In this document: in pieces, positions 31,183-49,432 of the stretch
How the letters are laid out: every line of letters starts with the position of its first letter
How positions within the stretch are numbered: position 1 is the first letter of the stretch
Assembly (NCBI RefSeq): GCF_009708035.1
Contig: NZ_WMBQ01000001.1
Span: forward strand, 682,001-746,000
Length of the DNA stretch: 64,000 nucleotides
Direction of reading: 5' to 3'
Source: Hyphomicrobium album
GTDB lineage: Bacteria > Pseudomonadota > Alphaproteobacteria > Rhizobiales > Hyphomicrobiaceae
Translations under genes and position numbers: made by a program
The notes under the pieces: model-generated
Seen by the model: only the letters and a program-made list of their open reading frames with translations
The model's database searches: none
What the model was told of the DNA's origin: nothing

Positions 31183-31359
31183 ATGGAAGGCGAGCGAACT
31201 TTGTTGAAGGGCATCCTATCGAGTGAGGCCGATTTCGAGGTTATCGTGACTGGCCCGGTGGGCGTGAAGGAGATCGAACGGCTCGTCCGCAAGCTTGAGT
31301 TCGACAAGGAAATTCTGGCGGAAAAATCCACGAAACCTGGCGAATACGACGACATCTAA
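31183..31359 (+). CDS. Small hypothetical protein (58 residues)
   Basis: A 58-residue acidic protein, MEGERTLLKGILSSEADFEV at its start, then a likely amphipathic helix (KEIERLVRKLEFDKEILAEK). ATG 31183 has AAGGAG eleven bases upstream, and a hairpin follows the stop codon by five bases, which supports a real transcription unit. Similar short proteins with a VGPVGxKEIERLIRKLEFDKEIL-like middle part occur in rhizobia without known function, to my memory. A longer in-frame version starting at 31078 would overlap the transposase remnant and is less likely. Confidence 0.55.
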   Translation: MEGERTLLKGILSSEADFEVIVTGPVGVKEIERLVRKLEFDKEILAEKSTKPGEYDDI

Positions 31360-31364
31360 GCAAT

Positions 31365-31389
31365 GAGCCCCGGCTTGTGACCGGGGCTC
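31365..31389 (+). terminator. Hairpin after the 58-residue gene
   Basis: A 9-bp perfect stem GAGCCCCGG (31365-31373) with CCGGGGCTC (31381-31389) and a 7-base loop lies five bases after the stop codon at 31359. Only CTGTCTGG follows, so the U run is poor, but position and strength suggest termination. Confidence 0.55.
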
Positions 31390-31721
31390 CTGTCTGGCGG
31401 CTAAGAACCGCCGAAAATATTCCCAGTGAGGGGGTCAATTCCGACAGCGCTTTCGCCTATTTACCAGAAGCCCACGTCATGGACCCCTCTCCCCATCCTC
31501 ACTGACGGGTTCAAACCGGGAGGGCGTGGTTATCCCGCTTATCCTTCAACGCTATTGACGTCTCGGGGGCGGCATGTTTCCGGCGCCTGAAGACGTAGCA
31601 TGTTAGCTCCTCTGCAAACGCGGGGAGGACATGGTTATCGCGTGGCCCACCGACAAGAACATCCCCAAGGCAAATTAGGACGTTTTCCAGCAAATACGGA
31701 CAGCACCCAACCCCTCTTGCG
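31390..31721. other. Gap upstream of lexA
   Basis: About 330 bp without a credible gene between the hairpin at 31389 and the lexA control region. A GGTTCAAACC word near 31508 resembles a tRNA T-loop, but the flanking bases do not pair, so no tRNA is called. Confidence 0.4.
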
Positions 31722-31736
31722 GAACGCTTAAGGAAC
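31722..31736 (+). promoter_or_regulatory. LexA operator (SOS box), GAAC-N7-GAAC
   Basis: GAAC at 31722-31725 and again at 31733-31736 are separated by exactly seven bases. The direct repeat GTTC-N7-GTTC, seen here in the reverse orientation, is the established SOS box of alphaproteobacteria such as Rhodobacter and Rhizobium. It lies 73 bp before the lexA start codon, consistent with autorepression. Confidence 0.85.
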
Positions 31737-31809
31737 GGCTAGGGTACGTTCACGCTTTGTCCAGACAACCTGGAAGGAGCGCCCCGCCGGCCGAGCACCA
31801 GGAGGCTTG

Positions 31810-32514
31810 ATGCTCACCGAAAAACAAAAAGAGCTGCTGCTCTTCATCCACGCGCGCATGCAGGACAAAGGCGTGCCGCCGTCCTTCGACGAGATGAAGG
31901 ATGCACTCGACCTGAAGTCCAAGTCCGGCATCCACCGGCTGATCACGGCCCTCGTCGAGCGCGGCTTCATCCGCCGCCTTCCCCACCGGGCCCGCGCTAT
32001 CGAAGTCATTCGCCTTCCCGAAAACCAGACGACCCCCGCCGTGCCCAAGCGCGCCGGCTTCCAACCGAGTGTCATCGAGGGCAGCCGCAGCCGCGAATTG
32101 TCTACGCCGCCCTCGACTATGATCGACAGCCGCACGGTGTCGGTGCCGGTCATGGGCCGCATCGCCGCCGGCACCCCGATCAGCGCCATCCAGAACCACA
32201 GCCACGACATCGCCTGCCCGCCGGACCTCCTCACCAACGGCGAGCATTTCGCCCTCGAGGTGAAGGGCGACTCGATGATCGAGGCGGGTATTCTCGACGG
32301 CGACACGGTGATCATCCGCCGCTGCGACACCGCCGAGAACGGCGACATCGTCGTCGCCCTGGTGGATCAGGAGGAGGCTACCCTCAAGCGGCTACGCAAG
32401 AAGGGCACCACCATCGCCCTCGAAGCCGCCAACCCCGAGTTCAAGACGCGCATCTTCGGCCCCGATCAGGTCGACATCCAGGGGCGCCTCGTCGGGTTGA
32501 TGCGCCGCTACTGA
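31810..32514 (+). CDS. lexA: LexA repressor, SOS regulator
   Basis: A 234-residue repressor that cleaves itself when RecA filaments form. The N-terminal winged helix begins [13 protein letters not shown] with [11 protein letters not shown] and [15 protein letters not shown]. The self-cleavage site is Ala120-Gly121 in [11 protein letters not shown]. Ser155 in [15 protein letters not shown] and Lys193 in EEATLKRL form the catalytic pair. ATG 31810 has GGAGG five bases upstream; the codon before it is an in-frame TTG. The length is typical of alphaproteobacteria. The operator lies upstream. The stop codon overlaps the end of the convergent comEC by seven bases. Confidence 0.98.
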
Positions 32515-34668
32515 AGGCCGGCGGTGCGCCGCCCCTCCGGGTCGAACCCGGCGGGTGCGCCGCGCCGGGCCGGCATCGACCAGGGGCGGGTGCCGCGCGT
32601 CCGGGCGACCGTTTCGACACGGATGCTGCCGTCGGCGCCGATATAGAGCGCGTGCGTGCCCTCGCGGCGCGCGGCGAAGAAATCGACAACCGTCTTGGGC
32701 GTGGCGCAGCCGCGCGGACTGACCAGGGGTGAAACGAGGATCGCCGCCCGTCGGCAGTCCTCGGCGAAGGCCGCGGGATGTCGTGCCACCGCCACGTCGA
32801 GGCCTTTCACCCGGGAGCGGCAGCCGATGCCGTCGCAGGTGAAGGCCCGCGCTTTAGCCGCCTCCTCGACGGCACCCGGTGAGCCATCGTGCTCGAGCCA
32901 GCGCTCCAGCTCGAAGTTGGCGCTGCGCGCGCCGATTGCCGACAACACGCCCCCCTCCCCGCGTACGGCGACAAGCTCCCCGTCGCTGCCGATGAGAATG
33001 TCGGGGGCCGGCAGCGTCGGTGCCAGGGCAACCCCGCCGGCGATCAGCGCCACGCCGGCGAAGCGCCAGCGCGTCTGCCACAGCATCAGCCACAAACCAC
33101 CCGCCACCATCAGCAGGAACGCCAGCGTCGGCATCGCCGGAACCGGGAGCACCGCGCCCGGCAGCTCCGCCACGCGACGCGCCGTCCACACCATCGCGTC
33201 GATGCCCCAGCCCATCACCCAGAGCGGATAGGCTTCGAGCCCGAACGGCATGGCGACCAGCGCCGCCAGAGCCGCCGGCATGACCAGCAGGTTGCACACC
33301 GGCAGGGCGATGAGGTTGGCGATGACGGCGAACTGCTGGCTCTTGTGGAAGTGATAGGCGGCGAACGGCGCCACCGCGGCGCTGGCTATTAGAGTCGACA
33401 GCACGATACCGGCAAAGAACACGGCGAGCCGTCCCGCACCGCCCTCCATCAGCGACGCCCAGAGATCGCGCTGGCGCAGGGCCTCGTACACCGCGACCAG
33501 CGCCAGCACCGCGGCAAACGACATCTGGAAGCCGACGTCGAACAGGCTTTCGGGAAACGCGATGAGGATAAGCGTCGCGGCCAGCACAACGTTGCGCAAG
33601 GCAAGCGCCGGCCGGTCGAGCAGAACGGCCAGGAACATGATGCCGATCATGATCGTCGAGCGCACCGTTGCGAAGGCCGCGCCGGAGATCATCAGATACG
33701 CCAATGCGGCGATCAGCGCCGCAGCCGCGGCCCATTTCTTGATCGGATAGCGCAGCGCAATAGCTGGGAAGCACGCGAGCCCCAAGCGCACGATGAAGAA
33801 CACCGAGCCCGCCATGATCGCCATGTGGAAGCCGGAGATCGACAGGATGTGCAGGATGCCGCTGTCGCGAAACGCCTCGTTCGTCGCCTCCGAGATGCCG
33901 CCGCGCTCGCCGGTGATCAGCGCCGTGGCGATGGCGCCGCGTTCTCCCGGCAGCGCCGCGGCGATGCGCGCGCCTATACCCTGGCGCAGGCGCTGCACCC
34001 AGGCCCACAGCCGCAAATCCAATGGCGGATCGCCCGCATTCGCATCGACCACCGGCGCCGACAGCGAATAGCCGACCGCGCCGATGCCCGCGAACCACGC
34101 CTGCCGCCCGAAGTCGTAGTCGCCGGGCAGCGCCGGCTCGGACGGCGGCATCAGCGTCGCGCGCAAGTGCACCGCGGTCCCTGCCGCAACCTCCGGCGTC
34201 GCGCGTGTGAGCGAGACGCGCACCCGTGCCGGCCGCGCCGCCACCGCCAGGTCGCCCAGCGCCACGACACGGAGGGTGAACCGCTGCCCACCCCCCCGCC
34301 TTGGGCTCGACCTGCTCGACCCAGCCGTGCACCTCGGCGCTGTTGATCTGCCGCTCCAGCACCGGTGCCCGCACCCATTCGACGCGGATTTTGGCGAGCG
34401 CGAAGCCGACGCTTGCCGCCAGCAGCGCTGCAACGAGCAGCGAGCCGAGCGTCCCCCGCCCCGTGCGCGCCCCGCGCCAGGCGAGCATGACGACCAAGGG
34501 AACCAGAGCGAGCACCAGCGACGGTTCGACGGGCAGCGCGAAATACGCCCCGATGCCGCATCCAAGGAGCACCGGCAGCCAGCAGAACCAGCGTTCCTGC
34601 TCGGCCTCGAGGCGGCGTTCCAGCGGCGCCAGAGCGCCGCCGCCGTCCATGCCTGCCCTACCGAACAT
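32508..34668 (-). pseudogene. comEC: ComEC/Rec2-type DNA uptake channel protein, frameshifted
   Basis: Two overlapping frames encode one ComEC family protein. The first (from ATG 34668) gives residues 1 to about 127: PLERRLEAEQERWFCWLPVL, two or three helices, and the DUF4131/OB-like start ending VEPKAGG. The second continues GGGQRFTLRVVALGDLA and runs to 32508 through the competence domain (HILSISGFHMAIMAG, FDVGFQMSFAAVLAL) and a short metallo-hydrolase-like tail. The break is at a run of seven G on the coding strand (plus-strand C at 34291-34297). Six G would give an uninterrupted 719-residue protein. It may be a sequencing error, a phase-variable tract or a new pseudogene. Family role: transport of single-stranded DNA across the inner membrane. 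Confidence 0.85.
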
Positions 34669-34757
34669 CCCCGAACCCTGCCGCCCCTTAACCGCCCCGC
34701 TCAGGCATGCTACATCGCCAAGCTCAATCCCGCATCTCAACGGCAATCGATAACAAG

Positions 34758-36197
34758 ATGACCGACACGTCACGCAGCGCCGGCGCGCCGATCGTGCGCT
34801 TTGCCCCTTCGCCCACGGGCTACCTGCACATCGGGGGGGCTCGCACGGCCCTGTTCAACTGGCTGTACGCCAAGGGCCGCGGCGGCAAGATGCTGCTGCG
34901 CATCGAAGATACCGACCGCGAGCGCAACAATCCCGAAGCCGTGGCGGCGATCGTCGACGGCCTCAAATGGCTGGAGCTCAACTGGGACGGCGACACCGTC
35001 TCCCAGTTTGGCCGCGCCCACCGGCACCGGCAGGTGGCCGAGGAGCTGCTCGCCAACGGACACGCCTACAAGTGCTGGCTGACCCCGGCCGAGCTCGACG
35101 CCATGCGCGAAAAGGCGCAGGCCGAAAAGCAGCCGCTGACCATTCGCTCGCCCTGGCGCGAGCGCGATCCGGCCGAAGCGCCGGCGGGCGTGCCGTACGT
35201 CATCCGCCTCAAGGCGCCGCGCGAGGGCGAGACCGTCGTCGACGACCAGGTGCAGGGCCGCGTCGTGTTCCAGAACAAGGAGCTCGACGACCTCATCATC
35301 CTGCGCTCGGACGGCAACCCGACCTACAATCTGGCGGTCGTCGTCGACGACCATGACATGCAGGTCACCAACATCATCCGCGGCGTCGACCACCTGACCA
35401 ACGCGGCGCGCCAGACGCAGATCTACGATGCGATGGGCTGGGAGATACCGATCTTCGCCCACGTGCCGCTGATCCACGGTCCCGACGGCGCCAAGCTGTC
35501 GAAGCGCCATGGCGCGCTCGGCATCGAGGCCTACAAGGAAATGGGCTACCTGCCGGCGGCCCTGCGCAACTATCTCGTGCGGCTGGGCTGGAGCCACGGC
35601 AACGACGAGATCATGTCGACGTCACAGATGCTCGACTGGTTCGACACCGTCGACATCAACCGCTCGGCGGCGCGCTTCGACTTCGCCAAGCTCGAGGACT
35701 TGAACGGCCACTACATCCGCAACACCGACGACCAGGAGCTGCTAAACCGCATCGAGGACCTGCTGCCCTACCTTCCGGAAGGGGGGCGGATCGTCGAGCG
35801 GCTCGACGCCAACATGCGCGCCAACTGGCTCAACGCCATGCCCGGCCTCAAGGAACGCGCCAAGACGCTCGTCGAGCTGGTGCAGGCCTCGGAATTCCTG
35901 TTCGCCGACCGGCCGCTCGCCCTCGACGACAAGGCCCAGAAGCTCCTCGACGCCGAGGGGCGGCAGCGGCTGGCCGATCTGCTGCCCAAGCTCGAAGCCG
36001 CGAACCGCTGGAAGGCGGCCGAGCTGGAGGAGATCGTCCGCACCTATGCGGAAGCGGCCGGCGCCAAACTCGGCAAGGTGGCCCAACCCCTGCGCGCGGC
36101 GCTGACCGGCAAGGCCGTGTCGCCGCCGGTGTTCGACGTGATGGCCGTGCTCGGCCGCGACGAGGCGTTGGCCCGCATTAAGGATCAGGCGGCATAA
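34758..36197 (+). CDS. gltX: Glutamyl-tRNA synthetase
   Basis: A 479-residue class I aminoacyl-tRNA synthetase that charges tRNA-Glu (or also tRNA-Gln in organisms that use amidation). The HIGH motif appears as HIGG (residues 24-27) in [15 protein letters not shown], and KMSKS as KLSKRHG in [16 protein letters not shown] 34758 yields the usual N-terminus MTDTS...[11 protein letters not shown]. It is divergent from comEC, with 89 bp between start codons, and is followed 228 bp later by gltA. Many alphaproteobacteria have two GltX-type enzymes; which one this is cannot be decided here. Confidence 0.96.
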
Positions 36198-36425
36198 GGA
36201 TGCCAAGAGCTACGACCGGCCATGGCACGCGGCTTATGACCGGGTCCGCCCCTATGTTGCGCTGCAAAATTAGTGTACAAGGTCGCATCGGGAAAAGATG
36301 AGCGGCCAACGCCGCCAGCCACGCCAGACGACCAAACGTTTCATAGGGGACCGCTGCTTGAGAGGCCCGCCAGGTGGCCACGGAGTGCTCGTAACCCGCT
36401 GCCCGGCATCACAGGATTCCGCGCC

Positions 36426-37745
36426 ATGAACGTTCACGAGAAAGCGCCCAATACCGAGGAAGTCGCCGCCGAGCTAACGCTCGAAGGCAAGTCGACGCGC
36501 ATGCCAGTGCGCAGCGGCACGCTGGGGCCCGACGTCGTCGACGTCGGCAAGCTCTACCGCGATACGGGCTGCTTCACCTACGACCCGGGCTTCACGTCGA
36601 CGGCCAACTGCACGTCGCGCATCACCTACATCGACGGCGACGCCGGTGTGCTGCTCTACCGCGGCTATCCGATCGACCAGCTGGCGGAGCATTCGAGCTT
36701 TCTCGAGGTCTGCTACCTGCTGCTCAACGGCGAGCTGCCGACGAAGGAGCAGTTCGACACCTTCCGCATGACGATCACGCGTCACACCATGCTGCACGAG
36801 CAGATGACGCGCTTCTTCACCGGCTTCCGGCGGGACGCGCATCCGATGGCGGTGATGGTCGGCACGGTCGGCGCGCTGGCGGCGTTCTATCACGACAGTA
36901 CCGACATCAACGACCAGGAGCAGCGCGCGGTTGCGAGCTACCGCATGCTCGCCAAGATGCCGACGATCGCCTCGATGGCCTACAAGTATTCGATCGGCCA
37001 GCCGTTCATCTATCCGCGCAACGACCTCGACTTCACTACCAACTTCCTGCAGATGTGCTTCGCCATCCCATGCGAGCCGTTCATCGCCAACCCGGTGCTG
37101 ACGCGCGCGCTGGACCGCATCTTCATCCTGCACGCCGACCACGAGCAGAATGCTTCGACCTCGACGGTGCGGCTGGCCGGCTCCTCGGGCGCCAACCCCT
37201 TCGCGTGCATCGCCGCCGGCATCGCCTGCCTGTGGGGACCCGCGCACGGCGGCGCCAACGAAGCGGCGCTGAACATGCTGATGGAGATCGGCAGCGTCGA
37301 CCGCATCCCCGAATACATCGCAAAGGCGAAGGACAAGAACTCCGGCTTCCGCTTGATGGGCTTCGGCCACCGCGTCTACAAGAACTACGATCCGCGCGCC
37401 AAGGTGATGCAGAAGACCTGCCACGAGGTGCTGGACGCGCTCGGGCTCCACAACGATCCGCTGCTCAAGGTCGCGATGGAGCTGGAGCGCATCGCCCTAC
37501 AGGACGACTACTTCATCGAAAAGAAGCTCTATCCCAACATCGACTTCTACTCGGGCATCACCCTGCGCGCCCTGGGCTTCCCCGTGTCGATGTTCACGGT
37601 GCTGTTCGCCATCGCCCGCACCGTGGGCTGGATCGCCCAGTGGAAAGAAATGATCGAGGATCCCGAGCAGCGCATCGGGCGGCCGCGGCAGCTCTACATG
37701 GGCTCGAAAGAACGCAACTACGTGCCGGTCGATCAGCGCGGTTGA
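36426..37745 (+). CDS. gltA: Citrate synthase
   Basis: A 439-residue type II citrate synthase that condenses acetyl-CoA and oxaloacetate to start the citric acid cycle. Visible signatures are [56 protein letters not shown] and [15 protein letters not shown], holding the catalytic His and Asp region. ATG 36426 gives MNVHEKAP and the family's expected length; the frame is open for 50 codons upstream without homology. No specific regulator site was identified in the 228-bp upstream gap. Confidence 0.98.
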
Positions 37746-37777
37746 ACGCGGCGCCTCGGCGGTCGAAAAGGCTCGTG

Positions 37778-38596
37778 ATGTTTAGGGCCTACATCGACCG
37801 CTGGGGGCTAGTTCCCGACGGCGCGCCGATTGAGCGCCGCAGCGGCAGCCTCCTTCCCGTCCGCTACAACGGCGCACCCGCGATCCTCAAGCTGGCGCGC
37901 GAGGCCGAGGAACGGCGCGGCGCGGCGATCATGGAGTGGTGGGGCGGCGATGGTGCCGCCCGCGTGCTGGCGCGCGACGGCGATGCCCTCCTCATGGAGC
38001 GCGCCACGGGCTCGCGCTCGCTCTCCGACATGGCGCGCGCCGGCGAGGCTGACGACATCGAAGCTGCGCGCATTCTCGTCGATGTCGCCAACCGCCTGCA
38101 CGCCCCGCGCGCTACGCCGCCACCGCCGGAGCTGACATCGCTGGAAGATTGGTTCCGCGAGCTGTGGCCGGCGGCGGAAGCGCGTGGCGGCCTCCTCGCC
38201 CGCAGTGCGGATACCGCGCGCGAGCTGCTCGCCGCGCCGCGCGATATCGTCGTGCTGCACGGCGATCTACACCACGACAACGTTCTGGATTTCGGCGAAC
38301 GCGGCTGGCTTGCCATCGACCCGAAGCGGCTTACGGGCGAACGCGGCTTCGACTTCGCCAACATCTTCACCAACCCGGATCTGGAAGATCCATCGCGCCC
38401 CGTCGGCGTCAGGCCAGAGCGCTTCTTGCGCCGTCTGGAGATTGTTGCGGACGCCGCCCGACTGGAGCGCGGGCGCCTGCTGCAATGGATCCTCGCGTGG
38501 ACCGGCCTCTCGGCCGCCTGGTACCTGAGCGACGGCGATCCCGCCGAAATCGACTTGATGGTGGCAGAGCTGGCGGTGGCCACGCTCGACGGCTAG
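37778..38596 (+). CDS. APH(6)-like phosphotransferase (aminoglycoside/hydroxyurea resistance kinase family)
   Basis: A 272-residue kinase-like protein of the APH(6)/StrB family. The nucleotide-binding part (PVRYNGAPAILKLA) is followed by the catalytic loop VVLHGDLHHDNVLDF and the metal-binding IDPKRLTGERGFDFANIF. It starts 33 bp after gltA with AAAAGG seven bases upstream; a GTG directly before the ATG is an alternative. Relatives phosphorylate streptomycin or confer hydroxyurea tolerance when overproduced, but many chromosomal copies have unknown natural substrates. Resistance cannot be claimed from sequence alone. Confidence 0.85.
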   Translation: MFRAYIDRWGLVPDGAPIERRSGSLLPVRYNGAPAILKLAREAEERRGAAIMEWWGGDGAARVLARDGDALLMERATGSRSLSDMARAGEADDIEAARILVDVANRLHAPRATPPPPELTSLEDWFRELWPAAEARGGLLARSADTARELLAAPRDIVVLHGDLHHDNVLDFGERGWLAIDPKRLTGERGFDFANIFTNPDLEDPSRPVGVRPERFLRRLEIVADAARLERGRLLQWILAWTGLSAAWYLSDGDPAEIDLMVAELAVATLDG

Positions 38597-38694
38597 TCGA
38601 TGGATGATCGACGACCGACGTTGGCCACGGATCAGGCCGTCGCCACTTTCCGAGTGGAACTCGCCGCTGTGCGGGGATAGCTTTGCTGCCTCCC

Positions 38695-41600
38695 TCAGAA
38701 CCGCCAGGTGGCGCGGCCCGTGACGGCATTGTCCTGCACGTTGTCAGCGAACTGGCCCGTATAGACGATCCCCGCCGTCGCGTTGGGAGCGAGGATGACG
38801 TCGAAGCCCGCGTCGATCAGTGCGCTGTCCTGCGCCAGCGGCACGCCCGAGACGACAAAGCTCTGCCCGAACGTCGCGAACGCGAGACTCTGGTCCGGGT
38901 CGACGTCGCCAAATGCGTGCAGCCAGGTGAGCGAACCGCGCGGCACCACCTCCATCCCGTCGATCAACATCGACCCTGCCGCGCGCAGGCCCAGCGTCAT
39001 GTAGCCGACACTGTCGTTGGCCCCGCTCGATGTGAGCGCGGCGAAGCCACCCCCCTCGGTGAAGCTGCCCGTATCGACACCCACCCAGGCGAGCCCGGTG
39101 AACGGCTCATAGGCGATGTGGCTGTGATTGAGCGGCAGCGCCACCTCGCCGAACACCTGCCCCGTGTTGGCGTTGTAGGAGGCTTCGACTTGCTCGAAGA
39201 ACCCCGGGAACACGATCGAGCGGTCGGTGTCGATGCTGCTCCACGACCACACGCCGCCACCGCGCACCACGAATGATCCCACCTGACCGCTTGTGTAGGC
39301 GGCGAGCTGGTAGCTGTCGACGTCAGCCGAGGAGAGGCGGCTGCCGACGCTCACGTCCGTTTGCGCGTAGCCAAGCGCGCCGCCGATGCGCCAGCCGTCG
39401 GCGAACATCGCATCCATGCCGGACAGGAAGCCGCCCAGCGTGCGGTTGGCACCGGCCGCGTTGCCGTTGCCGTTGAAGTCGGCCCAGGCGCCGTAGCCCT
39501 GCGTCCAGAAGGTGATCGGGGAGGCGACGCCAAGTTGCGGATCGACCGCATCCGAGGCGCCCATGCCCAATCCCGATATGCCGAGCCCCATCGGCGACGC
39601 GTTGCCAAGACCCGCCACCGCCATCGGGCCACCGGAGGCGAGCCCGGCCACCGCTCCGGTGTTGCCGCCCGTGCGCGCATAATAAGCCTGCACCAGGCGC
39701 CCCATGAGGATGTCGCGCACATAGTGGCTGTCGTTGGCGAGCGTGCTCGACACCGTCGCGTGCACCTCGCCCGACAGCGCGTTGAACGCCTGCTGCGCGC
39801 CGGCAGCCGTCGCCTGGAACTGAATGGCCTCGAACACCGGACTGTCCTGCGGCAGCGTCTCCAGCGCTTCCGCCACTGCGCGCTCGTTGGGCGTCCGCGC
39901 CACGGCGGAGAAGTCGGTGCTGCGCCGAAGCGTCAGCATCACGTCGTGATCGGCGCCGAAGTCGTAGTCGACGTAGGGAAGGAAGAAAATGAATGGACTT
40001 ATAACTTGCGCGAAGGTGCCGATGGCCGGTGTTCCGCCCAGGTTGTCGATGATCTCGTAGCTCGTCACCGGCGCGTACCTGCTCCGCGCGATGAGGAGCT
40101 GCAGGACGGCGCCGGTGAGATCGATCGACCCGAAGACGCCCGCCTGGTCGCTGGTCGTGGGATCGACCTCCACTTCGAAAACGCCGCCCAGATCGAAGCT
40201 GAGGTTACCGACAATGATCTGCGAGCCGATGGAGTTGCCCGGCGCGTAGATGCCGCCGGCGCCTATGGTCACGTTGGCGCCGAGAACGCCGGTGCCGCCG
40301 AGCACGCCGCCGTTCTGCACCTCCACGGGCGAGACGATCGAGCCATCGACGCCGAGCCTTCCGCGGGTGACCGTCGTCGGCCCCGTGTAGGCGTTGAATG
40401 CCGTAAACCTCACCGTGCCCGGACCGTCGATGGTCAGGCCATTGCTGCTGCTGCCGGTGATGATGGCGGTGAACTCGGCCGATCCTTCGGGGCTCAACGT
40501 GCTCGAGCCGAACAGCACGAGCGGCAGGCTGCTGGTGAACCCGTCGGGAACGGTGAACGGCCCGCCCAGCGCCATCCACATGTTGATGGTGGGCGACCCC
40601 GCGCCGGACGATGCGAGCTGATACCCGGTAAAGCCGTTGTCGGCATCGAAGATGAGATTAATGCCGTTGAACACGCGCAAGCCCGTATTGAAGTAAGTGT
40701 CGGTGCCGCCAGGGAGATGAACCTCGTGGGGCCGCATCGGATCGCTGACGTTCAGCTGGAACTCGTAACTGAAGATCTGAAAGCCACCGGTGGGAAGGCT
40801 TATGGCGAGGTAGGTGCTGTGGTCAGCACACTCATTCTGGCCGCACGTGAAATGGCCGACCGTTCCCGTTGGGGTGAGAATGCCTGGCTTGAGGCCGGTG
40901 TCCATCAGCACTGTGCCCTCCACCGGCGGCTGGGAATCGACCGTGATCGACGCCGGCACGAGCGACCATTCCTTGTTGGTCGGCGTGAAGTAGGTGGGAT
41001 TCGGCGCGAGCTTGATGAAGCCGGCATTCGCTGTATTGCTCGTTGTCAGGCCAAGCTGGACCTGGTCCCCCGAGACGACATAGCCGTTGTGCCAGTCATC
41101 CGGCAGCACCGTGAGCGGGCCACCCGGTGTGACCGCCACTGCGGTGAGATTGAGGAATGCGTTGTATTCGGGGCTGTGCCGGGAGGGATCCGTTTGCCCG
41201 ACCGCCCCCTCGCGGGCAAAGCCGACGCCCATCATGTGCACGTCGGGGCTGTAGTTCCACTGGCAGTTACCGCCGTTCGCGTCACAGCGCTTCTCATGGG
41301 TCACCTGCAGCACCGGGACCTTCGCCTCAGCCACCAGCACGCCGTTGCTGTAGATTTGCTGCGTGGCCTCCCACCAGACCCCGTACTCGGTGCGGTGGTC
41401 GCTCGAGTAGTACTGCGAGCCCTCGCCGAGCCTCTTGGCGTCGGGACCGGGCGTGAAATACTGAGACGATGCCAGGATGCCGACCGAGCCCGTGTCCATG
41501 GTGAAGGGATTGGACGCGCCCGATCCGTTGAAGCCCAGCTGCACCGTCGGCTGCGTGTCGTCGCCGCTAATCGTGTCGACGAAGTCGACGGCGACCCAGC

Positions 41601-41724
41601 CGCCGCCGACATAGAGGTTGGAGGACTGTGGGGATGCTGGAGTGGCGGCAAGCAGGAGCACACCTGCTGCTGCGCAGGCGCGGTGCGCGTGAATACGGCG
41701 GGTTGGCGATCGCGTCGCTTGCAT
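38695..41724 (-). CDS. Autotransporter with a pepsin-like (two-DTG) passenger domain
   Basis: A 1009-residue type Va autotransporter. After the signal peptide (about 1-33) the passenger has FTMDTGSVGILASSQYF with Asp77 and GTVLMDTGLKPGILTP with Asp275, plus MMGVGF near 164-169. Two DTG motifs about 198 residues apart, with a GxGF-like strand between, recall pepsin-family aspartic proteases (Asp32 and Asp215 in pepsin). Residues about 425-560 form an autotransporter-associated strand-repeat region (NAYTGPTTVTRGRLGVDGS, YAPGNSIGS), followed by a barrel ending TGRATWRF. ATG 41724 gives the signal peptide, but no clear ribosome site precedes it. The protease activity is inferred. It stands alone between the kinase gene and lpxB. 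Confidence 0.85.
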   Translation of the reverse strand: MQATRSPTRRIHAHRACAAAGVLLLAATPASPQSSNLYVGGGWVAVDFVDTISGDDTQPTVQLGFNGSGASNPFTMDTGSVGILASSQYFTPGPDAKRLGEGSQYYSSDHRTEYGVWWEATQQIYSNGVLVAEAKVPVLQVTHEKRCDANGGNCQWNYSPDVHMMGVGFAREGAVGQTDPSRHSPEYNAFLNLTAVAVTPGGPLTVLPDDWHNGYVVSGDQVQLGLTTSNTANAGFIKLAPNPTYFTPTNKEWSLVPASITVDSQPPVEGTVLMDTGLKPGILTPTGTVGHFTCGQNECADHSTYLAISLPTGGFQIFSYEFQLNVSDPMRPHEVHLPGGTDTYFNTGLRVFNGINLIFDADNGFTGYQLASSGAGSPTINMWMALGGPFTVPDGFTSSLPLVLFGSSTLSPEGSAEFTAIITGSSSNGLTIDGPGTVRFTAFNAYTGPTTVTRGRLGVDGSIVSPVEVQNGGVLGGTGVLGANVTIGAGGIYAPGNSIGSQIIVGNLSFDLGGVFEVEVDPTTSDQAGVFGSIDLTGAVLQLLIARSRYAPVTSYEIIDNLGGTPAIGTFAQVISPFIFFLPYVDYDFGADHDVMLTLRRSTDFSAVARTPNERAVAEALETLPQDSPVFEAIQFQATAAGAQQAFNALSGEVHATVSSTLANDSHYVRDILMGRLVQAYYARTGGNTGAVAGLASGGPMAVAGLGNASPMGLGISGLGMGASDAVDPQLGVASPITFWTQGYGAWADFNGNGNAAGANRTLGGFLSGMDAMFADGWRIGGALGYAQTDVSVGSRLSSADVDSYQLAAYTSGQVGSFVVRGGGVWSWSSIDTDRSIVFPGFFEQVEASYNANTGQVFGEVALPLNHSHIAYEPFTGLAWVGVDTGSFTEGGGFAALTSSGANDSVGYMTLGLRAAGSMLIDGMEVVPRGSLTWLHAFGDVDPDQSLAFATFGQSFVVSGVPLAQDSALIDAGFDVILAPNATAGIVYTGQFADNVQDNAVTGRATWRF

Positions 41725-42012
41725 GAGTAGAAGACCGGCGACCTGAAAATGGAGATCAAATCCGACGCGATCGGCGCCCCACTGAAGGCCGCCTGGAACT
41801 GTCAATTGACCCAGCTGACCCAGCCGGCGACGGCATGGTGGTGCACGCGGGGCGTTACTAACTGCCGTTCAGGGTTGGGCGATTCCTAGCCACATGTCCA
41901 GATGCGCGAGTACCCCTCACGCGCTGGTTGTGGCAAATGCGTACTAAGCCGACGCATTGCCGCTCGGTCAGCCCGTAGTTGAACCGGCCGCGGTCTAATG
42001 ACCGGACAATCT
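41725..42012. other. Gap between the autotransporter gene and lpxB
   Basis: About 290 bp that must contain the autotransporter promoter and the end of the lpxB transcript. A nested imperfect inverted repeat occurs at 41889-41934 (outer GCCACA/TGTGGC, inner GCGCGAG/CTCACGCGC) without a U run. No gene is evident. Confidence 0.4.
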
Positions 42013-43260
42013 TCAGCGGTCGGGCCGGCGGCCGTGCACCGCGTAGTCGAGCACGATGTCGGCGGCGGCGTCACTCGGCGTGCCACCGTCGAGGAGCATC
42101 TTGTGGGGTATGCGCGCCAGCGCGGCCAGTTGTGCGCGCCGCTCGGGCGAGTCCCGCAACAGCGGCTCGAGCGCATCGGCGAGCTTCTCGGGCGTGCAAT
42201 CTTCCTGCAGGAGCTCGGGAAACGCATTCTCCTCGAGCACCAGGTTGGCCAGCACCACCGAGGGAACGTTGAGCAGGAAGCGCATGTGCGCCGCGATCCC
42301 ATCGACCTTATAGGCGACGACCATCGGCGTGCCCGCCAGAGCCAGCTGCAGCGTCACGGTGCCCGATGCGGCGAGCGCCGCGTGTGCCAGCCTGAAGGCG
42401 CGGAACTTGTCTTCCTCGCCCTCGACCAGATGCGGCTGCACCGTCCACGACTGGGCGAAGCGCTCGACCAACGGACGCACGTGCGCCACCACCGGAATAA
42501 TCACCTGCGGGCGGATGCGGCGGGCATGCAGGAGCTCGAGCGCCTCACCGAACGGCTGCATCAGGCGCGTCACCTCGGAGGTGCGGCTGCCCGGTAGAAC
42601 CACCAGGACCAACCGACCGGGGTCGAGTTGCAGACGCTCGGCGAGCGGCGCCGGGTCAAGCTCGTGCATCCAGTCGAGGCGCTCGATCAGCGGATGTCCG
42701 ACGTAGGTGCACGGCGGACCGCCGAGGCGCTGGTGCGCCGCCGGCTCGAAGGGCAGGAGCCCCATCACGTGATCGACGTACGGGCGCATCTTGCGCGCCC
42801 GCCCCGGGCGCCACGCCCAGACGCTCGGCGAAACGTAGTCGATGATGGGGATGAACGGAGCGCGCTTGCGGATGCGCTTGGCGATCGGATGCGTGAACTC
42901 CGGCGCATCGATGATGACGACCGCGTCGGGCTCCGCGGCGACGGCTGAATCGACCGTGCGATAGACGCGCGACATGATGCGCGGCAAGCGCGGCAGGATC
43001 GACAGCGGGCCCATCACCGCGACGTCGGACAGCGGGAACTGCGAGGCGAGCCCCGCCGCCTCCATGTCCTCGCCGCCGACGCCCAGATAGTGGATGCGGC
43101 CCTTGCAGCGGGCGCTGAGCGCACTCATCAGTTTGCCGCCCAGCGCATCGCCGGAATGCTCGCCCGCGACCAGGAAGATGCGCAGGTCGTCGCGGCCGGC
43201 GCCGGATCCGCGTTTGCGGCTGGCGGGCCTGTTGGCGGCGGCGCGGTCGGTGAGGCTCAT
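42013..43260 (-). CDS. lpxB: Lipid A disaccharide synthase
   Basis: A 415-residue peripheral membrane glycosyltransferase that joins UDP-2,3-diacylglucosamine and lipid X to form the lipid A disaccharide. The N-terminal VAGEHSGDALGGKLM motif is at about residues 31-45. VGPPCTYVGHPLIE-type and LVLPGSRTSEV segments, and the C-terminal SGTVTLQLALAGTPMVVAYK donor-binding region, are present. Its ATG overlaps the lpxI stop codon by four bases, so translation is coupled. It closes the lpxD-fabZ-lpxA-lpxI-lpxB series. The first 25 residues are basic and poorly conserved. Confidence 0.97.
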   Translation of the reverse strand: MSLTDRAAANRPASRKRGSGAGRDDLRIFLVAGEHSGDALGGKLMSALSARCKGRIHYLGVGGEDMEAAGLASQFPLSDVAVMGPLSILPRLPRIMSRVYRTVDSAVAAEPDAVVIIDAPEFTHPIAKRIRKRAPFIPIIDYVSPSVWAWRPGRARKMRPYVDHVMGLLPFEPAAHQRLGGPPCTYVGHPLIERLDWMHELDPAPLAERLQLDPGRLVLVVLPGSRTSEVTRLMQPFGEALELLHARRIRPQVIIPVVAHVRPLVERFAQSWTVQPHLVEGEEDKFRAFRLAHAALAASGTVTLQLALAGTPMVVAYKVDGIAAHMRFLLNVPSVVLANLVLEENAFPELLQEDCTPEKLADALEPLLRDSPERRAQLAALARIPHKMLLDGGTPSDAAADIVLDYAVHGRRPDR

Positions 43261-44555
43261 GCTCCGCTTCCCTGCGGCGCGGCGATGAGAAACAATCCGT
43301 GCCGGTTGGCCGCCTCTATGCCATGCGCGAGAACGTCGGGCGAGCGGTCAAGCACGGCGATACCCGCAAATTGTGCTGCGGCCGCCGCGGCGACGACCGA
43401 GGCCAGATCCGGGGCAGCCGCGCCGGAAACAACGGCGACCGCCGAACGTCGGCTCCAACGGCGGCGCCCCCACTGGCGCAGATTACCCGAGCGGGCAATG
43501 AGCGCCGCGATCCCCTCGCCGCATTCGATGCTGAGCACATGGCCGCGATCGATGACCATGCCGCCGCTCGGCCGGAACGGTTTGAGAGCGGCGAGCAAGG
43601 CTGCGCCGCGCCCCGCATCGGCGAGCTGCTGCGGTCGGGCGGCCAGGCTGCCGACCGTCAAGAACGGGGCGGCGAATCCCGCCGCCGGAGCAGCAGCGAT
43701 GGTCGCACCGCCGTCGGTGCCCCCATAGACGAAGACGCCGGCGGCATCGGCGCTGCGCCGCAGCTCGGCACGCTCGAGCGCGATGGCGCCCTTGGCCAGC
43801 ACCGCGACCCCGCGCAGGCCGGCCTCCAGGGCGCGCGTCACGGTACGGGCGCCGATCGCCGGCATGTCGACGCGCATCTCTTGCCGCGGCTTCGGCCGCT
43901 TCACCAGTACCCCCCGCCGCGCGCCGACGCCGCCCTCGGGGACCTTTCGCTGTAAGACGAGGCGCGCGAGCATCGCGTCGGTGTTCTCCGCCCCCTCGAT
44001 CGCCTCGATCTGCCCGGCCGTGACGACGACCGCCTGTCCGACGTCGAAGGGTCCCAGCGCGCGCACGACGTCGAAGCCACGGGCGATGTCGAGCATGTCG
44101 GTCGCCTCCGGCGCGTGCACGCCGAGCAGCCCCTCGTCCACGAGCAGCGAGGGCATCACCTCGACCGGCGAGACGACCTTGAAGCCCTTGCTTTCGAAAA
44201 AGCGCACCACGCCGCTCAGCACGCTGTCGTCGCCGGTCGTCGCGATGATGCGGCCGATGGCCGGAAGATTGAGGAAGAACCCCAGGTCGGGCTTGATCGC
44301 GTTGAGATCCGGCCGGCGCACGGCGCCGACGATCACCATCTTGGTGACGCCCGCATTGCGCAGCGCCCGCACCATGCCGCCGACCTGCGCCCAGCCCACC
44401 TTGGTCAGCGGAAAGTCGCCGAGGTCGCGATCGCCCTCGCCGATGATCGATACGATGTGCACGGCCCCGCCGCTCGCCCGCACATGCTCGGCGATCTCGC
44501 GCGGCAGGCTGCCGCCGCCCGCCAGAATGCCGACGACGTCCTGCCCACCAGACAT
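43257..44555 (-). CDS. lpxI: UDP-2,3-diacylglucosamine pyrophosphatase LpxI with extra C-terminal domain
   Basis: A 432-residue protein; LpxI is usually about 270-290 residues. It makes lipid X by hydrolysing UDP-2,3-diacylglucosamine, replacing LpxH. Residues 1-280 are a complete LpxI: VGILAGGGSLPREIA, VGAVRRPDLNAIKPDLGFF, TTGDDSVLSGVVRFFE, GQAVVVTAGQIEAIEGAENT and GLRGVAVLAKG...GVFVYGG. Residues about 331-427 look like a second, degenerate C-terminal domain: GGMVIDRGHVLSIECGEGIA and FAGIAVLDRS...HGLFLIAAP. ATG 44555 has GAGGAC upstream and overlaps the lpxA end by having its ribosome site inside it. lpxB is coupled downstream. Confidence 0.93.
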   Translation of the reverse strand: MSGGQDVVGILAGGGSLPREIAEHVRASGGAVHIVSIIGEGDRDLGDFPLTKVGWAQVGGMVRALRNAGVTKMVIVGAVRRPDLNAIKPDLGFFLNLPAIGRIIATTGDDSVLSGVVRFFESKGFKVVSPVEVMPSLLVDEGLLGVHAPEATDMLDIARGFDVVRALGPFDVGQAVVVTAGQIEAIEGAENTDAMLARLVLQRKVPEGGVGARRGVLVKRPKPRQEMRVDMPAIGARTVTRALEAGLRGVAVLAKGAIALERAELRRSADAAGVFVYGGTDGGATIAAAPAAGFAAPFLTVGSLAARPQQLADAGRGAALLAALKPFRPSGGMVIDRGHVLSIECGEGIAALIARSGNLRQWGRRRWSRRSAVAVVSGAAAPDLASVVAAAAAAQFAGIAVLDRSPDVLAHGIEAANRHGLFLIAAPQGSGA

Positions 44556-44560
44556 ATTGT

Positions 44561-45358
44561 TTAGTCCTCGGACGCTTCTTTCGGCGTGCACAAGCTGCGC
44601 TTGCCGCCGGTACGGATGAAGGCGAGGATTTCCTGCACGATCGGCTGGCTGCCGAATTCCTCGGCCACGTCCTCGGTACGCTCCGAAAGCGTGCCCTCGG
44701 CCGCGAACAGAAGCCGGTAAGCGCGGCGCAAATCGTGGATGTCGTTGCGCGAGAAGCCGCGCCGCTGCAGTCCGACGATGTTGAGCCCCGAAAGATGCGC
44801 GCGGTTGCCGAGCGCCATGCCGTAAGGGATCAGATCGTTCTCCAGTCCCGACATGCCGCCGAGGAAGGAGTGCGCGCCGACGCGCGCGAACTGGATCACC
44901 GCCGCGCCGCCGCCGAGGATGGCGAAGTCACCGACGTTGCAATGTCCCGCCAACATCACGTTGTTGGAGAAGATGACATTGCTGCCGACGTGGCAGTCGT
45001 GCCCGACGTGCGAATTGGCTAGAAACGCGCAGTGGTCGCCGATGGTGGTCGACATGCCGCCGCCCTCGGTGCCGGGGTTCAGAGTCACACCCTCGCGGAT
45101 CATGCAGTCGGCGCCGACGGTGAGCGTCGAAGGCTCGCCGTGGTACTTGAGGTCCTGCGGCTGATGGCCGATGGAGGCGAACGGAAAGATGCGCGTGCGC
45201 GCACCGACCGTCGTGCGGCCCGTGACCACCACGTGGCTCAAGAGCTCGACGCCCTCGCCCAGGGTCACGTCGGCGCCCACCACGCAATAGGGGCCGATCT
45301 TCACCCCCGCGCCGAGCTTGGCGCCCGGCTCGATGACCGCGGTCGGATGCGCCGTCAT
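44561..45358 (-). CDS. lpxA: UDP-N-acetylglucosamine acyltransferase
   Basis: A 265-residue trimeric left-handed beta-helix enzyme that adds the first hydroxyacyl chain to UDP-GlcNAc in lipid A synthesis. Hexapeptide repeats run through residues about 10-190. The catalytic histidine lies in ANSHVGHDCHVGSNV, and LAGHCNVGDFAILGG follows. ATG 45358 lies one base after the fabZ stop codon, with GGGTGAG before it. An ATG three codons earlier (45367) overlaps fabZ and is less likely. The length is close to E. coli LpxA (262). Confidence 0.97.
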   Translation of the reverse strand: MTAHPTAVIEPGAKLGAGVKIGPYCVVGADVTLGEGVELLSHVVVTGRTTVGARTRIFPFASIGHQPQDLKYHGEPSTLTVGADCMIREGVTLNPGTEGGGMSTTIGDHCAFLANSHVGHDCHVGSNVIFSNNVMLAGHCNVGDFAILGGGAAVIQFARVGAHSFLGGMSGLENDLIPYGMALGNRAHLSGLNIVGLQRRGFSRNDIHDLRRAYRLLFAAEGTLSERTEDVAEEFGSQPIVQEILAFIRTGGKRSLCTPKEASED

Positions 45359-45359
45359 C

Positions 45360-45878
45360 TCACCCATTTTTGGTTGCGCCCGCCGCGAAGGCACGGGCCT
45401 CGGCGGTGTCGGCAAGCATGGCGCTGACCTCGGCCTCGGCGACTATGTAACCGTTGACCTTGGCCTCGCCGTAGAAGCGCCAGACGCGCCCGCGGTTGCG
45501 GATCTTGCGCACGTGATAGTGGATCGTGTCGCCCGGCAGCACCGGCCGGCGAAACTTGGCGCGGTCGATGCCCATGAAATAGACGAGTTCGGCGCGGTAG
45601 CCTTCCTCGAGGCTCGAGACGCACAGGGCGCCGGCGGTCTGCGCCAGGCCCTCGATGATGAGCACGCCCGGCATTACCGGGTATTGGGGGAAGTGGCCCT
45701 GGAAGAACGGCTCGTTGATCGTCACGTTCTTCACGCCGACACAGCTCCTGTCGGAGTCCATGTCGAAGATGCGATCGAGCATGAGGAAGGGATAGCGATG
45801 CGGCAGCAGCTGCATCACCTTGACGATATCCGCCGTGCCCAACGCCGGCTTGGCCTGTTTATCAGCCATGTCATTCAT
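45360..45878 (-). CDS. fabZ: 3-hydroxyacyl-[acyl-carrier-protein] dehydratase
   Basis: A 172-residue hot-dog-fold enzyme that dehydrates hydroxyacyl-ACP in fatty-acid elongation; it competes with LpxA and LpxD for hydroxyacyl-ACP, which explains its place in this cluster. The active site shows [14 protein letters not shown] with the catalytic His, and [20 protein letters not shown] with the catalytic Glu. I chose ATG 45878 (MNDMADKQ). An in-frame ATG at 45893 has GAGGAG only one base away, too close for efficient initiation, but it is the alternative start. It is followed directly by lpxA. Confidence 0.96.
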
Positions 45879-45926
45879 GCTCTTCGACCTCATACTCCTC
45901 GGCGCCAGGCGCCGGACATACCGTAA

Positions 45927-46973
45927 TCATGCCTCGTCGGCATCGTCCTTCGCGCCGCGCTTTGCCATGCGCGCGAGCCAGGCCGTTTCGCGCGCCCATT
46001 GCGTGAGAGGGCGCCCCGGGGTGCCCCCCACCTTGGCGCCGGGAGGCACGTCCTTCGTCGGGTGGCTGGTCCCGGCAATCTGGGCGCCGGCGCCGACCTT
46101 GATGTGGCCAGGGGTTCCCGACTGACCGCCCATGACGACGAAGTCGCCGAGCTCGGCGGAGCCCGCAATACCGACCTGGGCAACGAGCACGCAGTGGCGC
46201 CCGACGACGACGTTGTGCCCGATCTGGACCAGATTATCAATTTTGCTGCCTTCGCCGATGACCGTGTCCTTAAGCGCCCCCCGGTCGATGGTCGAATTGG
46301 CCCCGATTTCCACGTCGTCCTGAATAATGACCCGGCCGATCTGGGGCACCTTGAAGTGCCCCTGCGGGCCCATGGCGAAGCCGAAGCCGTCCTGCCCAAT
46401 CCGGACGCCCGAATGGATAATGACCCGGTCACCAACGAGGGCGTGAACCACGGTCGCTAGCGGCCCAATATAGCTGTCGCGGCCGATGCTTACGCGGTAG
46501 CCGACGACCGCCCCGGCAGCGATGCGGGTGCCGCGGCCAATGCGTGCTTCCGCGCCGATGACGGCGCCCGGCTCGACGATGACGCCCTCCTCCAGCTCGG
46601 CGGAGGCGGCGATCCTCTGGTCGCCCGGCGGCGCCGCCTGGGAGAAGCGTGAGTCCGGATAGAACAGCATCAGCGCCAGGGCGAACCCGCGATAGGGGTC
46701 GGGCGTGACGAGCCTTCCGGTTGTGTCGGGAACGCGGGCAGCAAGCGCCGGCAGCACCAGGCAGGCCCCGGCCCGCGTGGCTTTCAGCTGGTCGGCATAC
46801 TTGCGGTTGTTGAAGAAGGTGAGGTCGCCCGGACCGGCGTCCGATAGGGTGCGCACGTCCGCGAGGAGCGTGTCGGCGGTCACTGGGCCCGGCGCCAGCT
46901 CGGACCCGGTCGCCCTGGCGATATCCGCCAACGTGAACGGCCCGGCCCGCTTGAAGAATCCGGGATGTTCCAT
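45927..46973 (-). CDS. lpxD: UDP-3-O-(3-hydroxyacyl)glucosamine N-acyltransferase
   Basis: A 348-residue trimeric acyltransferase that adds the second hydroxyacyl chain in lipid A synthesis. The N-terminal uridine-binding domain ([27 protein letters not shown]) is followed by a long hexapeptide-repeat helix ([33 protein letters not shown] with the catalytic His region [10 protein letters not shown]-like [14 protein letters not shown]). ATG 46973 gives MEHPGFF; an ATG at 47003 is an in-frame alternative. It lies 104 bp after bamA, as usual. Confidence 0.96.
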
Positions 46974-47077
46974 GCCGTGACCCGCCGCTCGGCGACGCTC
47001 CATCAATTGCTGCCAATTGCACGGAGGCGGGCTCCGCTACGCACACGGAGGTCTTCTTAGCACCGAATGCGCGGCGA

Positions 47078-49432
47078 TTAGAACTTCGTCGCCGCGCCGA
47101 AGCGGAAGAACTGCTCGTCGTCGTAGACTTCCTTGGTGAGGGTCTTGGCGAAATCCATACGGATCGGGCCGACCGGCGAGGCCCACATCAAGCTGGCGCC
47201 GACCGACGAGCGGATGGCCGAGCTGTCTGCGAGGCAGACCCGGGTCGTGTCGCCGGCGGCGCAGCCCTGCGGGAGGCCATTAACGTTAGAGCCCCACAGA
47301 GAGCCGGCGTCGGCGAACACCGCGCCGGAGATGCCGAGGTCGTCCGGCACGAACGGGATGGGGAAGCGAACTTCCGCCGTCGTCGCCCAGTAGTACTGAC
47401 CGCCGAGCGCGTCACCCGTGTTCAAGTCGCGTGGACCGTAGCCGGCACGATCGAAGCCGCGCACCGTTTCACCGCCCTTGAAGAACAGGTCGATGAGGCG
47501 GACGTCCGAGCCACCCCAGCCCTGGATCGAGCCGCCGACCGCACGGGCGACGAAGGTGATGTTGTCGGTGATCGGGTAGTAGCCGCGGGCTTCCGCCGCG
47601 AGGCTGACGTACTGCACGTCGCCGCCGAGACCGGCGAAGTCGGCGCCCGTCTGGAACCACAGGCCCTTGGTCGGGTTCTTCGCGTCGTTGCGCAGGTCGT
47701 AGGTGAGCGTCGAGCCCATCATCGAGGTGTACGAAGTGCCCTGAGCCTGCAGAATGGCGCGCGAAGCGGCCGGGTTGACGTTGAAGATCTGGTCGCGCGA
47801 CGCGGTGTACGACGTCTGCATCCAGAGCTTTTCGGAGATCGGGAAACCGAGGCGCAAGCTGGCACCGGTGCGGCGGCTCTGGAAGCCCGACTGGCTCGTC
47901 TGGTCGACCTCTTTGTGGAACAGGTCGAAGCCGGCGGCGAGGTTGCGGTCGAGGAACCGCGGCTCGGTGAAGCTCAGGTTCACCTGCAAGCGCTCGAGCG
48001 AGCCCGACAGCTGCAGGCGCAGGAACTGGCCGTTACCCATCAGGTTGCGCTCGGTGATCGACACGTCGCCGATCACGCCTTCCGCGGTCGAGTAGCCCGC
48101 ACCGAACGACAGCTCGCCGGTGGACTGCTCGACCAGCTCCACGTCGAGCACGACGCGGTCCTGGGCGCTGCCGGGGCGGCGCTTGACTTCGACGCCCTTG
48201 AAGAGGCCGAGGTTGGTCAGGCGCTTCTTGGCCTGATCGACCATGAGCGGATTGTAGGCGTCACCCTCGGCCACCTTGAACTCGCGCCGGATCACGTAAT
48301 CCTTGGTGCGGGTATTGCCGGTGACGTTGATGCGCTCGATGTAGACGCGCGGGCCTTCCTCGATCACGTAGTTGAGCGCGATGGTGCGCGCCACTGGATC
48401 GGGCGTCGCCTGCGGACGCACGCGGGCAAAGGCGAAGCCGTCCTGCGACACCTTAGAGGTCAGGGCCTCGACCGACTTGTCGATCATGTTGGCGTTGTAG
48501 GTTTCGCCCTGATCGGTGAGCAGCTCGCCCTTGAACTTGGTGGGATCGATGGCAGCGACGGTGCTCTCGATATTGATGCCGCCGAACTGGTAGGCCTCGC
48601 CTTCCTCGATCGAGTAGGTGATGAAGAAGCCGGAGCCGTCGCGATCGAGCTCGGCGTTGGCCGCCGTCACCTGCACGTCGGCGTAGCCGTTCTTCAGGTA
48701 GTACTGGCGAATGAGCTCGCGATCGAGATTCATGCGATCGGGGTCGTAGATCGCCGTGCCCTTGAGGAAGTCGAACCAGCCCTTCTCGGTCGTCGAGACG
48801 ACGTCGCGCAGCTGGCTGTCGGAGAAGGCCTTGTTGCCGACGAAGTGGATGCCCTTGACCTTCGTGGCGCCGCCTTCGGCGATTTCGAACACGAGGTTCA
48901 CGCGGTCCTGCTCGAGCTCGATGATCTTCGGCTCGACGGTCGCCGCGTAGCGGCCCTGCCGGCGATAGACGTCGAGCACGCGCTGCACGTCCGCCTGGAC
49001 GCGCGCCCGGGTGAACACCGAGCGCGGCTTCAGCTGAACTTCGTTGCGCAGCGTATCGGTGTCGACTTCGCTGTTACCTTCGAAGGCGACCTGGTTGATG
49101 ACCGGGTTCTCGACGACGGTGACGATGACATCGGCGCCCGAGCGATCGATGCGCACGTCGGAGAAGAGGCCGGTGCCGAACAGCGCCTTGATCGACCCGT
49201 CGACTTTCGCCGGGTCATAGGGGCTGCCGACGGAGAATTGCAGATACGAGCGAACCGTCTCCGGTTCGACGCGCTTGTTGCCCGAGACGTTGATGGCCCG
49301 GATGGTTGCACCCTGCGCTTCGGCAGGGACGGAGTACAACGCGCCACCGACGCAAAGTCCCCCTGATGAGATCACCGCCATTAACAACGCCAGGCGGCAG
49401 AATCTCACCGTGATGGCTCGTACCACAGGCAT
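47078..49432 (-). CDS. bamA: Outer membrane protein assembly factor BamA
   Basis: A 784-residue core subunit of the BAM complex, which inserts beta-barrel proteins such as the two autotransporters in this window. A signal peptide (about 1-40) is followed by five POTRA domains (first: IRAINVSGNKRVEPETVRSYL; last: RVYIERINVTGNTRTKDYVI, each split in families of about 75 residues). A 16-strand barrel follows with the conserved VRGFDRAGYGPRD loop and a terminal Phe (GAATKF). It lies between rseP and lpxD, the standard order in alphaproteobacteria. ATG 49432 has GAGGG about ten bases upstream. Confidence 0.98.
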   Translation of the reverse strand: MPVVRAITVRFCRLALLMAVISSGGLCVGGALYSVPAEAQGATIRAINVSGNKRVEPETVRSYLQFSVGSPYDPAKVDGSIKALFGTGLFSDVRIDRSGADVIVTVVENPVINQVAFEGNSEVDTDTLRNEVQLKPRSVFTRARVQADVQRVLDVYRRQGRYAATVEPKIIELEQDRVNLVFEIAEGGATKVKGIHFVGNKAFSDSQLRDVVSTTEKGWFDFLKGTAIYDPDRMNLDRELIRQYYLKNGYADVQVTAANAELDRDGSGFFITYSIEEGEAYQFGGINIESTVAAIDPTKFKGELLTDQGETYNANMIDKSVEALTSKVSQDGFAFARVRPQATPDPVARTIALNYVIEEGPRVYIERINVTGNTRTKDYVIRREFKVAEGDAYNPLMVDQAKKRLTNLGLFKGVEVKRRPGSAQDRVVLDVELVEQSTGELSFGAGYSTAEGVIGDVSITERNLMGNGQFLRLQLSGSLERLQVNLSFTEPRFLDRNLAAGFDLFHKEVDQTSQSGFQSRRTGASLRLGFPISEKLWMQTSYTASRDQIFNVNPAASRAILQAQGTSYTSMMGSTLTYDLRNDAKNPTKGLWFQTGADFAGLGGDVQYVSLAAEARGYYPITDNITFVARAVGGSIQGWGGSDVRLIDLFFKGGETVRGFDRAGYGPRDLNTGDALGGQYYWATTAEVRFPIPFVPDDLGISGAVFADAGSLWGSNVNGLPQGCAAGDTTRVCLADSSAIRSSVGASLMWASPVGPIRMDFAKTLTKEVYDDEQFFRFGAATKF

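Follow-up and report, generated by a model that had tools for sequence, protein, structure and literature searches.

An open reading frame of Hyphomicrobium album predicted to encode an autotransporter with a pepsin-like passenger

The subject of this analysis is a gene on the minus strand of a 64,000-nucleotide stretch of Hyphomicrobium album DNA (contig NZ_WMBQ01000001.1, positions 682,001 to 746,000), referred to here as the window. The gene occupies 38695..41724 as one uninterrupted open frame of 1009 residues, running from an ATG at 41724 to a stop at 38695. Translation could also start at a TTG at 41805, which would add 27 residues at the N-terminus. A long plus-strand frame at 39361-41730 was read as the antisense shadow of the gene, which has a single match in its own 3.9 Mb genome. 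An earlier note had described the product as an autotransporter with a pepsin-like passenger bearing two Asp motifs, and that description is supported by conservation across 65 aligned rows and by the predicted fold. We consider it likely that the protein belongs to the classical (type Va) autotransporters and carries as its passenger an aspartic protease of the same kind as PecA/PE_PGRS16, with two lobes in a single chain. The features recognized by sequence or prediction are a signal-like start, a pepsin fold, one Asp motif per lobe, a conserved tyrosine, a linker, a stalk and a barrel.

The protein begins with a putative signal peptide region (residues 1-33, 41626..41724, all features being on the minus strand), identified by eye from its basic start, hydrophobic core and Ala-rich end. 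The two-lobed pepsin-like catalytic domain follows (residues 34-373, 40606..41625). Next come a linker common with other pepsin autotransporters (residues 374-432, 40429..40605), a β-strand stalk that opens with a passenger repeat (residues 433-736, 39517..40428), and an outer-membrane barrel ending in a terminal Phe (residues 737-1009, 38698..39516). PF03797 matched the barrel at 739-988 (E 3.2e-57, 194.6 bits, cut-off 26). TIGR02601 matched the start of the stalk at 429-459 with 23.6 bits, above its cut-off of 19.85, and the Pfam PATR repeat matched at 433-457 with 22.9 bits, under its cut-off of 27. A strand-repeat stalk and barrel downstream of the passenger, as the earlier note had it, are borne out by the PF03797 and TIGR02601 matches. 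The full-length Pfam scan at E<=10 returned Autotransporter and PATR only, with no match to a Peptidase S6 or S8 domain or to an N-terminal PE domain. The NCBIfam EprS model reached 308 of the 1700 bits it requires; its best stretch was the barrel (737-1009), with one second stretch. When the whole protein was compared with profile libraries, the best stretch of every match lay at residue 404 or beyond.

The motifs stand where they had been claimed. DTGS begins at residue 77 and DTG at residue 275, with MMGVGF between them at 164-169; a third DTGS, at residue 884, lies inside the barrel. Residues 34-420 were shuffled 20,000 times, and a pair of D[TS]G motifs separated by 150-230 residues arose in 2.1% of shuffles, or in 0.45% when the first was required as D[TS]G[ST]. 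Taken alone, the two spaced motifs are only moderately unlikely by chance and so are weak evidence. The case rests on the conservation of the motifs in the 65 aligned rows and on the predicted fold.

The 65-row alignment of the catalytic domain includes the window row and comprises 19 autotransporter-type rows, labelled by frame length, and 46 free forms. L045, L046 and L093 (divergent), L080, L083, L084 and L087 (duplicate loci) and L092 (partial) were excluded. In the N-lobe motif DTGS (residues 77-80, 41485..41496), D77, G79 and S80 occur in 65/65 rows, and position 78 is T or S in 65/65. The flap (residues 104-115, 41380..41415) carries Tyr106, also in 65/65 rows. The N-lobe hydrophobic-hydrophobic-Gly motif MMGVGF (residues 164-169, 41218..41235) is a strand in the model, with G166 and G168 in 65/65. 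In the C-lobe motif DTGL (residues 275-278, 40891..40902), D275 and G277 are found in 65/65 rows, position 276 is T or S in 61/65, and position 278 is I, V or L in 63/65 and Ser in 2. A closing segment of the C-lobe (residues 344-369, 40618..40695) is modelled as a helix, then a strand, and contains N346, D360 and G364 in 65/65 rows. The window row keeps Thr at both 78 and 276. The Thr of the second DTG is replaced in 4/19 autotransporter-type rows (Ile in L044, Ala in L051, Leu in L085 and L091); these are possibly less active members, judging from that substitution.

The earlier note had doubted activity because the second motif lacks a Thr or Ser after Gly. Leu278 is indeed present at that position, the counterpart of pepsin Thr218, but the doubt drawn from it is weak, because the residue is Ala in renin and HIV protease and Rawlings and Bateman tie Ala to neutral-pH activity (PMC2761423). 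Since Leu278 replaces pepsin Thr218, activity near neutral pH would be expected. Tyr106 was likened to pepsin Tyr75 by spacing alone, lying 29 residues past the first Asp; two shewasins are tabulated as D37/Y69, a spacing of 32 residues (PMC2761423).

The comparison of a predicted structure with pepsins, suggested in the earlier note, returned the two-lobed pepsin fold and not an unrelated one. The predicted domain matched the fold of 4EHC, which stood at rank 2 in Foldseek; the structural comparison covered the high-ranked Foldseek chains, among which the absence of a family carries no meaning. A viral fold search gave three matches at E<=0.001: two Pandoravirus proteins and one unnamed protein. 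Searched by phmmer against PDB, the passenger alone gave no match. A 21-member profile (profile A1, from which L045 and L046 were excluded) matched 4EHC at E 1.6e-7 and pepsin 1am5 at E 0.0039; both Asp motifs of pepsin were aligned, each pepsin stretch being weak singly. The isolated domain matched Pfam PE-PGRS_C (PF20729) at E 1.2e-5 with 25.3 bits, not reaching the cut-off of 33. PF20729 matched 14/21 members at E<=10 (best 3.2e-9), Pfam Asp_protease_2 matched 13/21 at the same threshold, and NCBIfam PecA matched 7/21. The window domain should work like pepsin and is nearest to PecA by sequence, under the cut-offs of both family models.

A single-sequence search of genome contigs found no relative. 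An alignment query in a wider scan of the contigs found 47 loci, 11 of them in frames of at least 747 residues. Counting the own genome, matches occurred in 17/397 sampled genomes of the order (Hyphomicrobiales/Rhizobiales), 10/385 of the class and 6/349 of the phylum. Among close relatives 3/60 genomes matched, the own genome being one of the three; 0/7 other genomes of the genus and 0/28 of the family did so. In the order 22 other places were found; the frame is 1018-1189 residues long at 7 of them and 346-589 at the other 15. Read by eye, the short frames resemble free secreted proteins that are ∼360 residues long and have a signal-like start. PF03797 was present in 6/7 long pepsin-type relatives scanned, and the seventh, L085, ends in a Hint domain. 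In the 19 autotransporter-type rows, 7 have a Pfam barrel, 6 more align to the window barrel and L085 has none; 4 could not be judged for a barrel (record masked or ending early), and L091 was outside the barrel scan. A plasmid search returned a single record, a Methylobacterium plasmid, at 33% identity.

L085 and the similar L091 are Rhodospirillales proteins with a pepsin-like domain of the autotransporter group and further DSG/DTG motifs downstream, and L085 has a C-terminal Hint_2 domain instead of a barrel. At L165 (G776:C4:105500-114500) two pepsin-type autotransporter genes are adjacent. L093, on a contig of the planctomycete family Isosphaeraceae, is a 1614-residue frame with DTGS and DSG motifs within a repeat protein. 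The free forms L047, L049, L056, L059 and L066 come from Burkholderiaceae, Serratia, Atlantibacter and Citrobacter and cluster together within the free side of the catalytic-domain tree.

In that unrooted 65-row tree a branch with support 100/100 splits the 19 autotransporter-type rows from the 46 free forms; some other long branches besides that of the window row were flagged by the tool. The barrel has different affinities. With 15 barrels from autotransporters that lack a pepsin domain, the window barrel shares 44-56% identity; these 15 were picked from a list ordered by their likeness to it, a choice that favours them. The window barrel is 38-41% identical to 7 order-level pepsin-autotransporter barrels and 24-27% identical to 6 others, Reyranella included. 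In a longer similarity-ranked list the pepsin-autotransporter barrels appeared at 38-39% only. A group of the window barrel with the 7 order-level pepsin-autotransporter barrels was rejected in a 31-row barrel tree (p-AU 5.8e-5), a grouping named after the identities had been seen and in a tree with several unsettled forks. Residues 433-700 are 30-38% identical to 13 pepsin autotransporters and 32-48% identical to 15 others (8 at 43% or more).

A linker hidden Markov model (HMM) built from the linkers of 13 other pepsin autotransporters scored 40.1 bits on the window protein. Against 16 autotransporters without a pepsin domain its best score was 18.7 bits (L160, weak), and the L085 and L091 proteins scored 48-49 bits. 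The linker is therefore not confined to barrel proteins. The weak match of L160 and those of L085 and L091 also led us to drop it as a marker specific to pepsin autotransporters. Part of it resembles a stalk motif of general occurrence. Local similarity between the window protein and the 15 non-pepsin autotransporters begins at 397-444 in 8 of them and at 259-357 in 7. The simplest reading of these alignments is a recombination near the first stalk repeat, with the exact joint not fixed. The gene probably arose by the joining, near 397-444, of a pepsin-plus-linker module to the stalk and barrel of a lineage whose relatives carry other passengers.

The gene has lpxB on one side and, on the other, an APH-like kinase gene with gltA after it; neighbour names come from a reading of the sequences, not from a family scan. 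In two genomes of the same genus (G001 and G002; L107, L108) a Gly-rich non-pepsin autotransporter lies between lpxB and gltA, and it is 43% identical to the window protein over residues 444-1009. In G005 and G006, which have the closest lpxB, about 70-75 bases separate the aligned ends of lpxB and gltA, with no autotransporter between. The site between lpxB and gltA is variable among relatives. The 7 autotransporter loci compared have no gene neighbour common to them all, and we accordingly propose no partner gene. A scan for promoters and terminators was uninformative, and no tRNA was found at 30000-50000 of the window. A second autotransporter with a repeat-type passenger (12686-15682, plus strand, 998 aa) lies about 23 kb off. 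The genome has 7 PF03797 places, 6 of them above the cut-off; one own-genome locus, L102, is absent from the barrel tree, no barrel having been extracted.

The C-terminal domain of PecA/PE_PGRS35 and PE_PGRS16 (PF20729, NF038019; PDB 4EHC) is likewise two-lobed and pepsin-like with an Asp motif per lobe, and this type is the best sequence-profile match of the window family. The motifs are 177 residues apart in PecA versus 198 in the window protein. In both, the domain belongs to a larger secreted protein displayed on the cell surface, as predicted for the window protein. They differ in export: PE proteins, which start with a PE domain, leave the cell by type VII secretion (PMC6819658), whereas the window protein has a C-terminal barrel. 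PecA is a surface aspartic protease that cuts itself and PE_PGRS proteins, and its D293G mutant is not self-cleaved (PMC6819658). By analogy PecA is the nearest working precedent for the proposed mechanism. With family A1 (pepsin, renin, plasmepsin and the shewasin-type bacterial proteins) the window protein has in common the predicted fold, both Asp motifs and the N-lobe hydrophobic-hydrophobic-Gly motif. No signal peptide is present in the bacterial A1 proteins described by Rawlings and Bateman (PMC2761423), whereas the window protein appears exported. SPATEs, which are chymotrypsin-like, and the subtilisin-like EprS, SphB1 and NalP have the same layout of N-terminal catalytic domain, stalk and barrel but differ in catalysis. 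Rickettsia APRc, reported to have retropepsin-like properties, is likewise an aspartic protease tied to the bacterial surface; retropepsins are single-lobe dimers, and APRc is not known to be an autotransporter passenger.

Export of the autotransporter chain and folding of the passenger outside the cell are established autotransporter biology. Sec would take the chain to the periplasm, where the barrel would insert in the outer membrane. The stalk would fold outside the cell and leave the N-terminal domain at its tip. There Asp77 and Asp275 would jointly activate a water molecule to cut a peptide bond in a substrate held beneath the Tyr106 flap. Its likely job, like that of PecA on mycobacteria, would be to trim or shed other proteins at the surface or outside the cell.

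Several points weigh against such a protease. To our knowledge no activity has been shown for any proteobacterial member. The window copy has Asp109-His110 at the flap tip in place of Ser-Gly, a pair unique among the 65 rows: position 109 is Ser in 63/65, and position 110 is Gly in 64/65 and His in the window row only. The window row sits on a long branch (1.44) with an unsettled placement within its group, and the C-lobe motif, placed by manual spacing against a pepsin sequence, reads Asn-Thr-Gly instead of hydrophobic-hydrophobic-Gly, with its Asn in 65/65 rows. Foldseek TM-scores were only about 0.5. A second profile (A2), mainly of free forms and without L092 and L093, was weaker than profile A1, with 4EHC at E 0.0022, HIV protease at 0.023 and no pepsin among its PDB matches. 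PF00026 had no match to the window protein at E<=10, nor in its genome. Direct kinship with PF00026-type bacterial pepsins, for which L170-L173 served as yardstick loci, was rejected: hhalign gave a probability of 0.5 against L170 alone, with the N-lobe of the window family laid on the C-lobe of L170, and 1.5 against L170-L173 aligned. These values are not significant, so we make no sequence-based claim of membership of family A1. Nor was activity seen for PE_PGRS16, the relative whose structure is solved (PMC6819658).

The last example, together with the flap change seen in the window only and the long branch, would suit a passenger that keeps the pepsin fold and no longer cuts, binding peptides, sugars or surfaces as an adhesin with a fossil active site. 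The loss of the second motif's Thr to Leu, Ile or Ala in 4/19 autotransporter-type rows points the same way. We regard this as unlikely, as the invariance of both Asp, Gly79, Ser80, Gly277 and Tyr106 is hard to explain without catalysis and the window protein has Thr at 78 and 276. It is similarly doubtful that the main activity of the protease is self-cleavage in the linker or stalk, releasing the passenger, and that it has no other substrate. PecA does cut itself (PMC6819658), the autotransporter-type forms have a related linker after the domain, and the lack of a common neighbour means that no dedicated partner was seen. Against self-release, free relatives have the same active site with no stalk or barrel to leave, and by eye the linker alignment holds no obvious invariant cut site. 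Chance DTG motifs in an ordinary adhesin-type passenger are a far more remote explanation. Spaced motifs did arise in 2.1% of shuffles, and the passengers of several autotransporters whose barrels are similar are repeat-type or Gly-rich, but the predicted pepsin fold and the family conservation refute it.

A broader proposal, to which we give about equal weight for and against, is that aspartic-protease autotransporters form an undescribed enzymatic class. One passenger lineage, split from the free secreted forms, would sit on at least three barrel lineages in Alphaproteobacteria (plus one betaproteobacterial contig) and act as a neutral-pH surface sheddase, the Gram-negative counterpart of PecA. 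The enzyme types given for autotransporters in a 2022 classification are chymotrypsin-like, subtilisin-like and GDSL esterase (PMC9289746). The strings "aspart-" and "pepsin" are absent from the main text, as available in part, of two autotransporter surveys (PMC3419190, PMC9289746). A literature search over titles and the starts of abstracts, with subscription papers, preprints and database annotations outside its scope, returned no aspartic or pepsin autotransporter.

The protease autotransporters of the 2022 classification are serine proteases (PMC9289746), and with a pepsin-type passenger type V secretion would gain a catalytic class. Such a protein would also be an exported bacterial pepsin homologue, as against the A1 members described in 2009, which have no signal peptide (PMC2761423). 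Since the dyad of the family is invariant and the structure of a distant relative is solved, its activity, pH optimum and substrate would be directly testable with one purified domain. The gene would be a natural example of the transfer of an enzyme module from one barrel to another, and would bear on how autotransporters gain function.
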